A DNA stretch of 64,000 bases, taken from assembly GCF_024227435.1 (NCBI RefSeq), contig NZ_CP100445.1, positions 3,035,369-3,099,368 on the forward strand. The letters run 5' to 3'. Shown here in pieces: positions 29,524-34,142 of the stretch. The notes beneath the pieces are model-generated. The model searched no databases and had not been told where the DNA came from. It saw nothing but the letters and a program-made list of their open reading frames with translations. The position numbers and the translations under genes were made by a program. Every line of letters starts with the position of its first letter. Positions within the stretch are counted from its first letter, which is position 1. The DNA is from Natrinema caseinilyticum (GTDB taxonomy: Archaea; Halobacteriota; Halobacteria; Halobacteriales; Natrialbaceae).

Positions 29524-31767
29524 TCAGTCGGTGAACGTCGACAGTCGGACCGTCCGGCCGTCGCGCAACGAACGCTGGATTCGGGAGCGGTCCCAGCCGA
29601 GCGGCGAAACGACGCTCTCGCATGCCCGCACGAGCAGCGTCGCGTAGTAGTCGGCGTCGTATGCGCGAGGCTCCTCGAGCGCGAGCCGGACGCGCTCGGG
29701 GCCGCGGGCGTCGTCGTCGCGGACGACGTACTCGACCGATTGGCCGGGATGGCGATCGATTCCCCGGCGCTCGTACCGCCGGAGCGCCGCGACGGTGTGG
29801 GTCCGCTGGCTGTAGTCGGCGAGGCGCCGCGAGACGCGTTTCGTAACCGTGAGGTCGGCGGGATCGACGTCGCCGGCCCGAAGCTCGCGCAGCCGTCGGC
29901 CGAGGACATCACAGACTGCCTCGGGATCGCGCTCGCGGTCGAGCGCCTCGACGAACGCGCGCTGGCTGTCCGCCACGAACGACGGCGTACTCCGCTGGCG
30001 AACCTCGATCCCCCGGAACTTGTACTCGCCGCCCGTGCGCTTGCCGAAATACCTGGTGAGCGCACCCGCAGACGCGCCCCCGCCGGCACGACCGCCGCCG
30101 GAACCGCGGTGTCCACTCCGGTCAGCGCGTCCGCCGGAACCGCCGCGGTCGACCGAACCGCCGCTCCCGATCGAGTCGCGCAACGGGACGAAACACACCC
30201 ACTCGTAGCTGCCGTCGTGCTCGAGCGGAATCCCCACGGTCGCGGAGATGTCGGCGGTCACGGCCGCGAGCGGTTCCGGCTCGTCGACTCGCGGCGTCAC
30301 CCAGAGGCTGTCGACGATGCCGTGGACGATCCGCCAGCCCGCCTCCTCGAGGCGCCGTTTGGCCGCCAGGGCTATCTCCCGGGCGTACGCGTTGATCGCC
30401 TCGTGGCACTCGATTCGACCGAACTTGGCGTTTCGGTACCCCTGATAGCCGAAACAGGAGACGAGGACCCACTTGATCGCGCCCGATTCGGCGCGAAGTC
30501 GGGCGGCCTCGTCGTCGGGCGGATCGTCGTCGAGTCGTCGCTTGATCGCGGCCCGATCCGTGATCAGCGACTCGAGGACCGCGGGGAGAAAGCCGTCGTC
30601 CTCGCAGATCTCGTAGCCGAGGTCGGGAACGGGAGTCGTTCCGGTGTGATCGATATCGCCGACGTCGCAGTCGCACCCGACCGTCTCCGGACTGACGTTG
30701 TGCTCGCAGATGATCCGCGGATACAGCGAGGCGAAGTCGATCTCGTGGACGTCCTCGTGGAAACCGACCTCGGGCGAGAAGGTGAACCCGCCGCGGTCGG
30801 CCGCGTGGAGCGTCTCGACGTCGGTGAACCGCTCCGGTTCCCACTTGTTCCACGGGGCGAGGACCGCCCGCCGCCGACGGGCGAGCCGGATCTGTCTCGA
30901 GGTCAACAGCGTACCGATGCTCCCCCAGGCGGCTTCCTGCAGCGGCCGGCCCGTTCGCTCGACCATGTAGCGAATCCCCGCCAGTCCCGACTGGTGCCAG
31001 AGGAAGCTGTTCGAGGTGTCGATAATCGCCCGACCCGGGACGCGGTATCGCGCGGGCGAGTGGCCCACCTGCCCGTAGCTCGCGTACGTGTTCTCGCTCG
31101 CCAGTTTCGTCAGCCCCGGCCGGCGGCCGAGGTGGAACTCGAGGCCGAGCGCCTCGGCCCGGCGCTCGAGTTCCGGCACCAGTTCGGCGTGGCTCACCAC
31201 GAGGACGTCCGGATCCCGCCGCTCGAGGCGGCGCCGAAGCGTCCGGAGGACGTGCGGTTCGTCACCCCCGACGGGCTCGCCGTCGAGTTCCAACACCGAG
31301 ACGTCGCCGTCGGCCAGCGCGGCCTCGTCGAGTGCGAGCCGGAGCTGTCGCAGATCGCGGGTCGGCGTCGGATCGCGGTCCCGATCGAGGCAGTATCGAA
31401 ACCCCGGCGCGAGGTCCACGTCGAACAGCCGGAACGTACCGGGAGCGTGCGCGTCGCGCTCGTGGACGCCCCGAATCTCACGAGCCAGCGTCCGGATCTC
31501 GTCGACGCGCTCGAGATCGGCCCGCAGGACGCGGCTTCGCTCGCCCGCGTGAGCCTCGTGGAGACTCGTCGCCCACCGCTCGGTTCGGGCCGCGGCGACC
31601 TTCGGATCGGCCTCGAGTCGCTCCCGGAGGCCGGCGAGTGCACCGTCGGGGCCGGCGACGAACAGCGACGGCGCGTAGTCCGCGACGGCCGTCGGCTCGG
31701 CTCCCTCCTCGGTCAGGGTCCACTCCCGTACGGTTCCGTCCTCGAACTCGAACGTGTAGGGGCTCAT
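29524..31767 (-). CDS. polB2: Family B DNA polymerase, PolB2 type
   Basis: 747 residues. Polymerase motif A EIDFASLYPRII (about 340-350) keeps the catalytic Asp; motif B region IKWVLVSCFGYQGYRNAKF (about 430-448); motif C reads HGIVDSLWV (about 480) where replicative enzymes have YGDTDS, so the second Asp is kept and the first is lost. The N-terminal exonuclease motifs are degenerate (VLELDGEP; SHAELVPELERR). A Gly/Ser/Arg-rich insertion sits at about 530-572. PolB2 enzymes are accessory and their activity is debated. Coupled by ATGA overlap to the next upstream gene; start 31767. Confidence 0.9.
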   Translation of the reverse strand: MSPYTFEFEDGTVREWTLTEEGAEPTAVADYAPSLFVAGPDGALAGLRERLEADPKVAAARTERWATSLHEAHAGERSRVLRADLERVDEIRTLAREIRGVHERDAHAPGTFRLFDVDLAPGFRYCLDRDRDPTPTRDLRQLRLALDEAALADGDVSVLELDGEPVGGDEPHVLRTLRRRLERRDPDVLVVSHAELVPELERRAEALGLEFHLGRRPGLTKLASENTYASYGQVGHSPARYRVPGRAIIDTSNSFLWHQSGLAGIRYMVERTGRPLQEAAWGSIGTLLTSRQIRLARRRRAVLAPWNKWEPERFTDVETLHAADRGGFTFSPEVGFHEDVHEIDFASLYPRIICEHNVSPETVGCDCDVGDIDHTGTTPVPDLGYEICEDDGFLPAVLESLITDRAAIKRRLDDDPPDDEAARLRAESGAIKWVLVSCFGYQGYRNAKFGRIECHEAINAYAREIALAAKRRLEEAGWRIVHGIVDSLWVTPRVDEPEPLAAVTADISATVGIPLEHDGSYEWVCFVPLRDSIGSGGSVDRGGSGGRADRSGHRGSGGGRAGGGASAGALTRYFGKRTGGEYKFRGIEVRQRSTPSFVADSQRAFVEALDRERDPEAVCDVLGRRLRELRAGDVDPADLTVTKRVSRRLADYSQRTHTVAALRRYERRGIDRHPGQSVEYVVRDDDARGPERVRLALEEPRAYDADYYATLLVRACESVVSPLGWDRSRIQRSLRDGRTVRLSTFTD

Positions 31768-32099
31768 TCGGTGCCGTCCCCGGGGGACCCGTCCGTCCCG
31801 CCAGCGGGCTCGTCTCCACCCTCGGTGGAGTCGATGCAGCCACTGCCTCCCTCGAGCGCAGCGAGTTCGGCGCGGAGCCGACGCAGTTCGACCTCGTGGG
31901 CGAGCAACAGCGACAACACGAGCGCCCGCTCGGGCCGCGGCGGGTTCGCGTACCCCGCCGCGTCGGCGAACTCTCGGGCCCGGTCGAACAGCCGGTCGAA
32001 ATCGTCCTGGTACTCCCGGCGCAGCGCCCGGCGCATCGGCTCCCACTCCGACTCGAGGCGCCGGAGGGCGTCGCGGTACGTCGGGTTCGTTCGGCCCAT
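31764..32099 (-). CDS. Small helical protein of the polB2 operon
   Basis: 111 residues: MGRTNPTYRDALRRLESEW, then a long charged helix region (about 8-85, RRALRREYQDDFDRLFDR, LSLLLAHEVELRRLRAELA) and a disordered Gly/Asp tail. Its last codon overlaps the polB2 start (ATGA) and its start overlaps the stop of the RecA-like gene (TGATG), so the three genes are translationally coupled. Haloarchaeal homologues beside polB2 are expected (a DUF8156-like family, from memory). Function unknown, likely a partner of PolB2. Confidence 0.82.
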   Translation of the reverse strand: MGRTNPTYRDALRRLESEWEPMRRALRREYQDDFDRLFDRAREFADAAGYANPPRPERALVLSLLLAHEVELRRLRAELAALEGGSGCIDSTEGGDEPAGGTDGSPGDGTE

Positions 32100-32800
32100 C
32101 AGCCGCTCACCTCGAGCAGCCCCCGATCGTGGGCGTCGACGACGGAATCGACCGCGTCGACGGCGCCGCAGATGTCGACCCAGTACGGGATCGTCGTCTG
32201 CCACACGGTTCCGTGCCAGTAGCCCGCCGTCGGGCCCGTCGACGCCGCGTCGTCGCCCGCAGCCTCGAGTCGGAGCCCCTCGCGCGTGCGGGTGCAATCG
32301 ATCGTCGTATCGGCGGCGTCGGCGAGCGCGCCGGACGCGGCGTCGTCGCGATCGCTCCCGGCCCGTGCACCGCCGTCGGCGCTCGAGAGCACCACCGGAC
32401 AGTCGAGTATCCGGCCCAGTTCGGACAGGATCTCGAGGCTCGCGGACAGCAGATCCGCGCGCTCCCACGCCGCGAGGTCGTCGTCACGGTAGAGGCTGGC
32501 GACGTTCGGCGCGACGAGAACCGACGTGGTCGGCCCGGCCCGTCGGGCGACCGCTCGGACCAGCGAGTGGTGTTGATAGGCCGTAAACGCCCGCGCAACG
32601 CGCAGGCCCTCGAGGACGCGCGGGCTCGAGGCGCAGTCGTACAGGGCGTGGGTCGAAGCCGCGTTCCGCGCGTCGATCCAGTAGGCCGCTCCGCCATCGC
32701 AGTCGGCGAGCCGATCACAGACCAGCCGGCGGACGATCCCCGACCGCGGCGACGGGACGTTCAGCAGTGTCACTCCGGGCTCGAGTTCGAGTCGGTGCAT
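32099..32800 (-). CDS. RecA/RadA-like fold protein with degenerate nucleotide site (polB2 operon)
   Basis: 233 residues. The strand/helix order resembles a RecA core: LEPGVTLLNVPSPRSG in the place of Walker A (no GKT/S), YWIDARNAAS, TSVLVAPNVASLYRDDDL in the place of Walker B without the Asp, and ILDCPVVLSSADG. So it appears to be an inactivated RecA paralogue. First gene of the operon with the small helical protein and polB2. TTATGC at about 32823-32829 gives a leaderless start at 32800. By analogy to bacterial ImuA it may recruit the polymerase; this is inference. Confidence 0.72.
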   Translation of the reverse strand: MHRLELEPGVTLLNVPSPRSGIVRRLVCDRLADCDGGAAYWIDARNAASTHALYDCASSPRVLEGLRVARAFTAYQHHSLVRAVARRAGPTTSVLVAPNVASLYRDDDLAAWERADLLSASLEILSELGRILDCPVVLSSADGGARAGSDRDDAASGALADAADTTIDCTRTREGLRLEAAGDDAASTGPTAGYWHGTVWQTTIPYWVDICGAVDAVDSVVDAHDRGLLEVSG

Positions 32801-32840
32801 ACGTGATGGCTAACGCGAACGCGCATAAGCGGCGGAACCC

Positions 32841-32861
32841 GGTTTCCGATACTTCCGAAAC
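32841..32861 (-). promoter_or_regulatory. Upstream element of the polB2 operon, shared with the orc promoter
   Basis: A GGTTTCCGATAC ... TTCCGAAAC element, itself a rough inverted repeat, begins 11 bp beyond the TATA box (32823-32829). The core TTTCCGATAC (32843-32852) recurs at 34128-34137, and the promoter-proximal end reads TCGGAAACCGG here and TCGGAACCGG at the other site. A related GTTTCCGAAAC repeat is at 32925-32935. Confidence 0.5.
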
Positions 32862-33019
32862 TCGGTTAATCGCCCGATTCTGCGGTCGAAGTGCTTCTCG
32901 TGGCCGATTTCGATTACCGATTCCGTTTCCGAAACGCGCGGCGATCGAGGCCGTCTAGACGGGCTGTGATCGGTGACCTGCGACTGGCGAACGGCGACCA
33001 GTGACCACGACCGACCGAA

Positions 33020-34075
33020 TCACCGACGTCCGCCCGTTCCATCGGCGTCGGTGTCGCCACCGTCCTCGTCGTCCTCGTCGACGAGACGGTACGTCCGCCC
33101 GCGGCGCTCGCCGACGGCCTCGATCAGGTCGTAGTGGACCATCTTCGTCAGGTAATTTCGCAGCGTCCTGTTCGTTTTCGGCTCCTCAACCCGCCGCTCG
33201 TACACCTCGTAGAGGTCTCCCGGTTCGATCTCGCCCGCCTCCGCGATCACGTCGTACAGCACCCGCTGGTGTTCGATCAGTCCTTCGACGGTCTTCCGGC
33301 GGATCGCCGTTCGAGCGTCCGGGATCGCCGCCTCGAGCGTCCCGGCGGTGATCGATCCCAGCCCCTGGCGCTCCGCGCGGTGGGCGGCCGACCGGAGGAT
33401 GCCGATACCGACGCGAGCGTCGCCCGACGCCGCGTCGGCGATCGTTCGCAGCTGTGCGTCGGTCACGACGTCCGGCTCGAGGGCTTTTTCGGCCCGTTTC
33501 GCGAGGATCGCCGCGAGTTCGTCGGTGCCGTAGCGGTCGAACCGAACGCGCGTTCCGGCGTGGAACCGCGAGCGCACGCGATCGTCGAAGCTCGCGAACA
33601 GTTCTTCCTCGCGATTGGCGATCAACACGGGCGAAACGTGGGGCAAGCGGTGGAGGTCGTACAGCGCACTCGTCTCCTCCAGCTGGTCGACCTCGTCCAG
33701 AATAACGACGATCGACCCATCGTCCGCTCGGGAGAGCCGATCGAACAGTTCGTCTTTCGGCGTGGATCGGTGGACGTCGACCGCGCGGTCGACCGACTCG
33801 AGGAGGCTGTACAGCACCCGAAAGCGCGTGTACTCCTGCCAGCAGTTGACGTACGCGACCCGCACCGTCGGCTCCTGTTCGCGCAACTGCGCGAGCGTGT
33901 AGCGAGCGATACAGGTCTTGCCGACGCCCGTCGGCCCGAACAGGAAAGCGGGGTCCGGCCGCCCGTCGTACAACAGCGGCTCGAGGGCTTCAGAGAGGAG
34001 GTTCACCTCGTCGTGGCGGTGGACCACCTCGCTCGGCACGAAATCCTCGCGCAGGACGCGACCGTCGACGATCAC
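33020..34075 (-). CDS. Orc1/Cdc6-family AAA+ protein
   Basis: 351 residues. AAA+ features: Walker A GPTGVGKTCIARY (about 47-59), Walker B VVILDEVDQL (about 120-130), sensor 1 VLIANREEE, sensor 2 region SGDARVGIGILRSAA, and a C-terminal winged helix (LIEHQRVLYDVIAEAG ... RTLRNYLTKMVHYDLIEAVG). Haloarchaea carry many Orc paralogues; those not beside origin repeats may act as regulators. GTG start at 34075 with a TTTAAG box 29 bases upstream. Ends in a disordered Asp/Gly tail. Confidence 0.9.
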   Translation of the reverse strand: MIVDGRVLREDFVPSEVVHRHDEVNLLSEALEPLLYDGRPDPAFLFGPTGVGKTCIARYTLAQLREQEPTVRVAYVNCWQEYTRFRVLYSLLESVDRAVDVHRSTPKDELFDRLSRADDGSIVVILDEVDQLEETSALYDLHRLPHVSPVLIANREEELFASFDDRVRSRFHAGTRVRFDRYGTDELAAILAKRAEKALEPDVVTDAQLRTIADAASGDARVGIGILRSAAHRAERQGLGSITAGTLEAAIPDARTAIRRKTVEGLIEHQRVLYDVIAEAGEIEPGDLYEVYERRVEEPKTNRTLRNYLTKMVHYDLIEAVGERRGRTYRLVDEDDEDGGDTDADGTGGRR

Positions 34076-34118
34076 ACCGGACCGGTTCGGTCTCGAGGGT
34101 CTTAAACGACGCCGGGCC

Positions 34119-34142
34119 GGTTCCGAATTTCCGATACCGAAC
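34119..34142 (-). promoter_or_regulatory. Upstream element of the orc gene, shared with the polB2 operon
   Basis: Contains GGTTCCGAA and TTTCCGATACCGAAC, beginning 11 bp beyond the TATA box (34101-34107), the same distance as the related element in the polB2 operon promoter. Confidence 0.5.

Follow-up and report, generated by a model that had tools for sequence, protein, structure and literature searches.

A PolB2 mutasome locus of Natrinema caseinilyticum and a promoter element common to its operon and the neighbouring Orc1/Cdc6 gene

Genes encoding PolB2, an arCOG07300 protein and an inactivated RadA (iRadA) have been described as a set, often with an arORC2 gene nearby (Makarova 2014, PMC4104785), and their products have been modelled as a heteropentameric PolB2-iRadA-PPB2(3) mutasome, the structural parallel of which is Pol V (Timinskas 2025, PMC11791011). 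In Sulfolobus islandicus, PolB2 (Dpo2) lacks the first Asp of the DxD motif and is yet an active extender polymerase (PMC8764526, PMC11791011); as cited in PMC11791011, it is needed for damage-induced mutagenesis (PMC7390963). Damage-inducible expression and mutagenesis of the PolB2 mutasome are on record for Sulfolobales only (PMC7390963). A second described system is Sulfolobus Orc1-2, a damage-response regulator with the DDRE element ANTTTC (PMC9738581). The present analysis concerns a cluster of iRadA, PPB2 and PolB2 genes with an adjacent Orc1/Cdc6 paralogue (orc) in the haloarchaeon Natrinema caseinilyticum, and a tandem TCGGAA element found upstream of both iRadA and orc. The locus lies in a stretch of 64,000 nucleotides (contig NZ_CP100445.1, positions 3,035,369 to 3,099,368), referred to as the window, in which all positions below are counted.

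The three-gene cluster and its Orc neighbour are already described in the literature (PMC4104785, PMC11791011), and sequence and predicted folds support adding the window cluster to the PolB2 mutasome family as a new member. What appears to be new is the promoter element common to orc and the mutasome operon, in the sense that no earlier account was found rather than that its novelty is proved. It is absent from the descriptions in PMC11791011 and PMC4104785, and no paper that connects the regulation of haloarchaeal PolB2 with the TCGGAA element or with an Orc was found in a search outside which most subscription papers lay. The reading favoured here, and considered fairly probable, is that of a PolB2-iRadA-PPB2 translesion mutasome, predicted to be damage-inducible and controlled, together with orc, by a non-initiator Orc acting at the tandem TCGGAA sites. 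The features of the locus are as follows.

29524..31767, minus strand: PolB2, 747 aa; family B DNA polymerase (PF00136 at 8e-24, NF004418 at 1.4e-255)
31764..32099, minus strand: PPB2 (arCOG07300-like), 111 aa; predicted to form three helices, with Arg3 and Arg9 in an N-terminal MGRT arm
32099..32800, minus strand: iRadA, 233 aa; RadA/Rad51 fold without N-terminal domain and without Walker A, Walker B Asp replaced
32824..32829, minus strand: CTTATG, TATA-like box of the iRadA-PPB2-PolB2 operon, 24 nt upstream of the ATG; position kept in relatives
32844..32858, minus strand: tandem element TCGGAAGTATCGGAA of the operon promoter, from sequence and relatives
33020..34075, minus strand: Orc1/Cdc6 paralogue, 351 aa; AAA+, Walker A GPTGVGKT, Walker B ILDEVD, conserved GTG start (TIGR02928 at 4.8e-58)
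34101..34106, minus strand: TATA-like box TTTAAG of the orc gene, from sequence; position kept in relatives
34121..34134, minus strand: tandem element TCGGAAATTCGGAA of the orc promoter, from sequence and relatives

The mutasome genes and their conservation

An earlier note, made from the sequence alone, had described three genes with stop/start overlaps and an Orc upstream in the same direction, and the sequence bears this out. All four genes are present on the minus strand, with a one-base overlap (TGATG) at the iRadA/PPB2 junction and a four-base overlap (ATGA) at the PPB2/PolB2 junction. The 219-bp gap between Orc and iRadA holds a separate promoter for the three-gene operon, and Orc is thus a same-direction neighbour, not the operon's first gene. 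The note's outer limit, 34142, was 67 bp too far, the conserved GTG start being at 34075.

In family relatives, 59/59 PolB2 loci have iRadA, PPB2 and PolB2 in this order on a single strand; two of them have 1.2-1.3 kb between iRadA and PPB2, one has a truncated iRadA and one a truncated PPB2. Outside the family, 19 of 20 loci show it too. Because of this recurrence the cluster cannot be put down to chance, and a lack of conserved gene order across haloarchaea, which the earlier note had marked for checking, is excluded. PolB2 itself is patchily distributed, the close relatives being drawn from about one-third of the family's genomes (a tally of 121/125 for PolB2 includes weak cross-matches to other family B polymerases).

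The assignment of an accessory family B polymerase is upheld by the matches listed above. Motif A of the window PolB2 reads DFASLYP and motif C reads IVD (GIVDS), in which the first Asp of DxD is replaced. This replacement is found in 60/60 PolB2 sequences, among which GIVDS is identical save one I/L change, and the motif A Asp and the second motif C Asp are likewise kept in 60/60. The D(K/R) loop before the palm is HAADRGGF in the window (ADRGG loop), with DR in all 60. The lost first Asp, in a family long called inactivated (PMC4104785), would suit a catalytically dead PolB2 whose complex is structural or regulatory at forks; the two acidic residues kept throughout, and the extender activity of S. 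islandicus Dpo2 despite the same loss (PMC8764526, PMC11791011), make this very improbable. Pfam family search found no exonuclease domain in PolB2, a result at the level of sequence families. The degenerate exonuclease that had been cited in support of a mutasome fits, but proves nothing by itself. A motif search likewise found no canonical PCNA motif in iRadA or PolB2. The C-terminal VRLSTF of PolB2 (window 29524-29560), a weak LS[ATSG][FYW] tail seen in 37/60 PolB2s, may be a degenerate PCNA-binding motif. Further, PolB2 contains a Gly/Ser/Arg low-complexity insert (30072..30174, minus strand; about residues 532-566) whose length varies between relatives, and the alignments of many relatives break off there, at residues 530-567.

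The apparently inactivated RecA fold proposed for iRadA is borne out by its family profile, its predicted fold and its degenerate Walker sites. The RecA-like identity is weak for the single sequence, which gives a sub-threshold Pfam Rad51 match (E = 0.24), but is secure for the family as judged from profile and model. A profile of 49 iRadA sequences matches Pyrococcus furiosus RadA at 8e-12, and the AlphaFold2 model (predicted local distance difference test score 84) matches RAD51/RadA/DMC1 chains (Foldseek 4e-10), with Z 19.7 over 197 residues against RAD51. Walker A is absent in 49/49 sequences, and the Walker B site, which reads LVAPN, has another residue in place of its Asp. The small protein is predicted to be helical, as had been suggested, with three helices. 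The N-terminus of PPB2 reads MGRTNPTYR, and 43 sequences show no variation at M1, G2, R3, T4 and R9. No Pfam or family model matched PPB2 above cut-off, and an ImuB-like identity was rejected for want of such a Pfam match. The published resemblance of PPB2 to sigma-factor domains was not reproduced, since the predicted structure gave no significant fold match in the PDB.

The window cluster thus agrees with the published PolB2 mutasome in its three genes and their order, the MGRT arm, the D(K/R) loop, the missing first DxD Asp, the degenerate RadA ATPase sites and the Orc neighbour. It differs in having no canonical PCNA motif in iRadA or PolB2, beyond the weak PolB2 tail; in the published family a fraction of members have a clamp-binding motif. 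These signatures and the gene order bear out the earlier note's reading of an archaeal mutasome, which is not new because the PolB2 mutasome has been published. The parallel that the note drew with bacterial ImuA-ImuB-DnaE2 holds as a loose analogy. As in that system and in Pol V, a RecA-superfamily subunit and an error-prone polymerase would belong to one damage-linked set, but the window polymerase is of family B, not C or Y, and its small subunit is a helical PPB2, not UmuD or the Y-family ImuB. Pfam and family models found neither a family C DnaE2 nor a Y-family ImuB among the three genes.

A tandem TCGGAA element before iRadA and orc

In the window, 14 nt separate the tandem TCGGAA-N(1-3)-TCGGAA from the TATA box downstream of it; in relatives its distance to the start codon is mostly 57-63 nt. 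Its specificity was judged against same-locus background and shuffles. The two promoters hold the window's only exact tandem matches (expected 0.13; two matches in 0/100 shuffles). In the main clade, 26/40 iRadA promoters and 27/33 Orc promoters contain the exact tandem, and a count over both strands of the same loci, 1.15 Mb in all, gave no copy outside these promoters. An Orc of the window's lineage also occurs in genomes where no PolB2 of the window kind was found, and there the tandem still precedes orc (L154-L159).

The whole 4.77-Mb genome contains eight exact tandem matches, including the orc and iRadA promoters, and 35 places when two mismatches are allowed. A large regulon in this genome was rejected on the three best places beyond orc, iRadA and the iRadA remnant described next: two are apparently coding (L192, L193) and the third is without a properly spaced TATA box (L191). 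A reversed-pattern control of the genome scan was dropped for being too permissive, since TCG GAA can plausibly encode Ser-Glu. A third of the eight genomic tandems (C1:1353059; L164:721-2129) is intact and has a TATA box; it precedes a decayed iRadA fragment and then an Orc fragment, a decayed second copy of the locus. In one genus of the family, the tandem precedes other genes whose start codons lie about 52-60 nt downstream, encoding DUF5817 proteins (L139, L148), HNH_repeat endonuclease-like proteins (L141, L145), an RNase_H_2 protein (L169) and small proteins (L140, L146, L149), a hint that the regulon may be wider in that genus.

Drift of the element is often parallel in the two promoters: TCTGGAC tandems occur in G189 (L310), TCGGCA in G001, TTCTGGCA in G190 (L307) and a common TATCGGAAATCACCCGGT in G301 (L236). 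When the upstream regions of orc and iRadA are compared, their best 18-mer identity is greater inside a genome (14.1) than between genomes (13.1; permutation p = 5e-5, n=23), an effect carried by about eight loci and to which common descent may contribute. From this covariation, one factor probably reads both promoters.

The Orc paralogue as candidate regulator

Pfam finds Cdc6 lid and AAA domains in the window Orc. It is the weakest and most divergent of six full-length Orcs in the genome, and in a tree its lineage is separate from the haloarchaeal initiator-type Orcs. Orc is found upstream in the same direction in 34/39 close relatives, the remaining five genomes encoding it elsewhere. The earlier note had given Orc no function; these features, taken with the promoter evidence, suggest a non-initiator AAA+ winged-helix regulator. 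An Orc that marks a replication origin, with the mutasome merely origin-linked, would agree with the family models, which annotate an Orc1/Cdc6 initiator, and with the chromosome records of two complete relatives, which begin at the orc gene (L040, L142). Against this stand the divergence and tree position of the Orc, and neither origin-recognition-box repeats nor an inverted-repeat array was found near the orc gene, although diverged boxes could escape the search. An origin beside the Orc was rejected on this last ground, and the origin-linked explanation seems highly unlikely.

As the sole DNA-binding protein in the cluster, Orc is the leading candidate for the factor that reads both promoters. 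Like Sulfolobus Orc1-2, the window protein is an Orc/Cdc6 paralogue with AAA+ Walker motifs, and its putative site occurs in two promoters, one before its own gene and one before the polB2 operon. However, its element is a TCGGAA tandem and not ANTTTC, and its predicted regulon in this genome is tiny. By analogy, the window Orc is proposed to work like Orc1-2, with no claim to membership of that type, the criteria of which include orthology to Orc1-2, the loss of four initiator arginines, sequence-specific binding and damage dependence.

In the proposed mechanism, DNA damage would change the state of Orc bound at the tandem sites, and Orc, placed upstream of the TATA box, would activate rather than repress both orc and the mutasome operon. 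Archaeal activators commonly bind upstream of the TATA box. In the resulting complex, iRadA would bind PolB2 as an ATPase-dead RadA-like subunit, and PPB2 would reach towards the active site with its MGRT arm. PolB2 would then extend mismatched, distorted or lesion-facing primer ends past lesions without proofreading, at the cost of mutations. The small Orc-mutasome regulon would act like the Sulfolobus Orc1-2 damage response. For PolB2 activity, damage induction, mutagenesis and Orc1-2 as a damage regulator, this model draws on the Sulfolobus literature (PMC7390963, PMC8764526, PMC9738581, PMC11791011).

The UV-B motif in other families and the reader of the element

In other Halobacteriales families, the position of the tandem is taken in 12/20 mutasome promoters by TTTCACTTTCA, by a close variant of it or by one of its halves. 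In Halobacterium, TTTCACTTTCA is the UV-B motif of radA1, top6B, vng17 and vng280, published in 2008 without a regulator (PMC2556686). Like the window's element it is a direct repeat just upstream of the TATA box, but its sequence is unlike the TCGGAA tandem. Thus, a damage-type motif lies before the mutasome in those families, and an Orc-linked element stands there in the window's family. A GGAA-type Orc lies upstream in 0/12 TTTCACTTTCA-type loci, as against 34/39 close relatives (Fisher p = 4e-8, relatedness ignored), and six genomes with TTTCACTTTCA-type loci encode no Orc of more than 43% identity to the window's Orc. Three more distant-type Orcs have a TTTCACTTTCA-type motif in their own promoters (L225/L252, L231, L299); the two placed in the tree fall within a separate lineage. 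ACTTTCACTTTC amounts to a tandem of the Sulfolobus Orc1-2 element ANTTTC; it was seen only in other families and may reflect homology or coincidence.

These data bear on a further explanation, in which the mutasome is the known one but an unrelated factor reads TCGGAA and has orc among its targets, while Orc does something else, for example fork restart or alternative initiation with the mutasome, as suggested in PMC4104785. The operon of other families has a different motif and is without this Orc, so another regulator must exist there. In the window's family, by contrast, there is covariation between the elements of orc and iRadA, no DNA-binding protein other than Orc lies in the cluster, every checked close-relative genome with a TCGGAA-type mutasome encodes an Orc of the lineage, and Sulfolobus Orc1-2 offers a precedent (PMC9738581). 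A separate reader is therefore considered unlikely. Several points nevertheless weigh against control by Orc. The tandem could be read by a factor other than Orc, and some Orcs of the lineage are without the element in their own promoters (L054, L055, L276, L279, L282, L283). The window Orc is also divergent from the Sulfolobus proteins. Families with the TTTCACTTTCA motif need no Orc beside the mutasome, and some of their genomes are without this Orc lineage.

A broader proposal, put forward tentatively and with the odds somewhat against it, is a haloarchaeal SOS-like circuit in which, by way of tandem GGAA sites, a lineage of non-initiator Orcs regulates its own expression and turns on the PolB2 mutasome, the operon of other families being wired instead to the radA1 ultraviolet (UV) motif ACTTTCACTTTC. 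If so, Orc-controlled, damage-induced mutagenesis would span distant archaeal phyla, and the Orc lineage would provide the haloarchaeal UV response with its missing regulator. The locus offers a candidate regulator, a concrete target in the mutasome and a candidate binding site that co-varies at the level of single bases, which makes such control directly testable in a halophile.

A few further observations concern related loci. Genome G190 has two mutasomes, one (L230) with a half TTTCAC-type motif and no Orc nearby, and a second (L307) that has a GGAA-type element and lies beside an Orc whose own element matches it. In the window's own genome, radA is preceded by CACTTTCACTTCCACTC, which is the UV-B motif with one change. 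TTTCACTTTCAC lies upstream of a small reading frame starting MPLIVEAGDE (L269; own genome C1:1214433), a possible member of a radA1-type UV regulon. Finally, genes for SRAP (SOS response-associated peptidase) are found near plasmid mutasomes of Halobacterium salinarum pHS2 and Haloarcula marismortui pNG600 (L172:1008-1697, L173:199-888).

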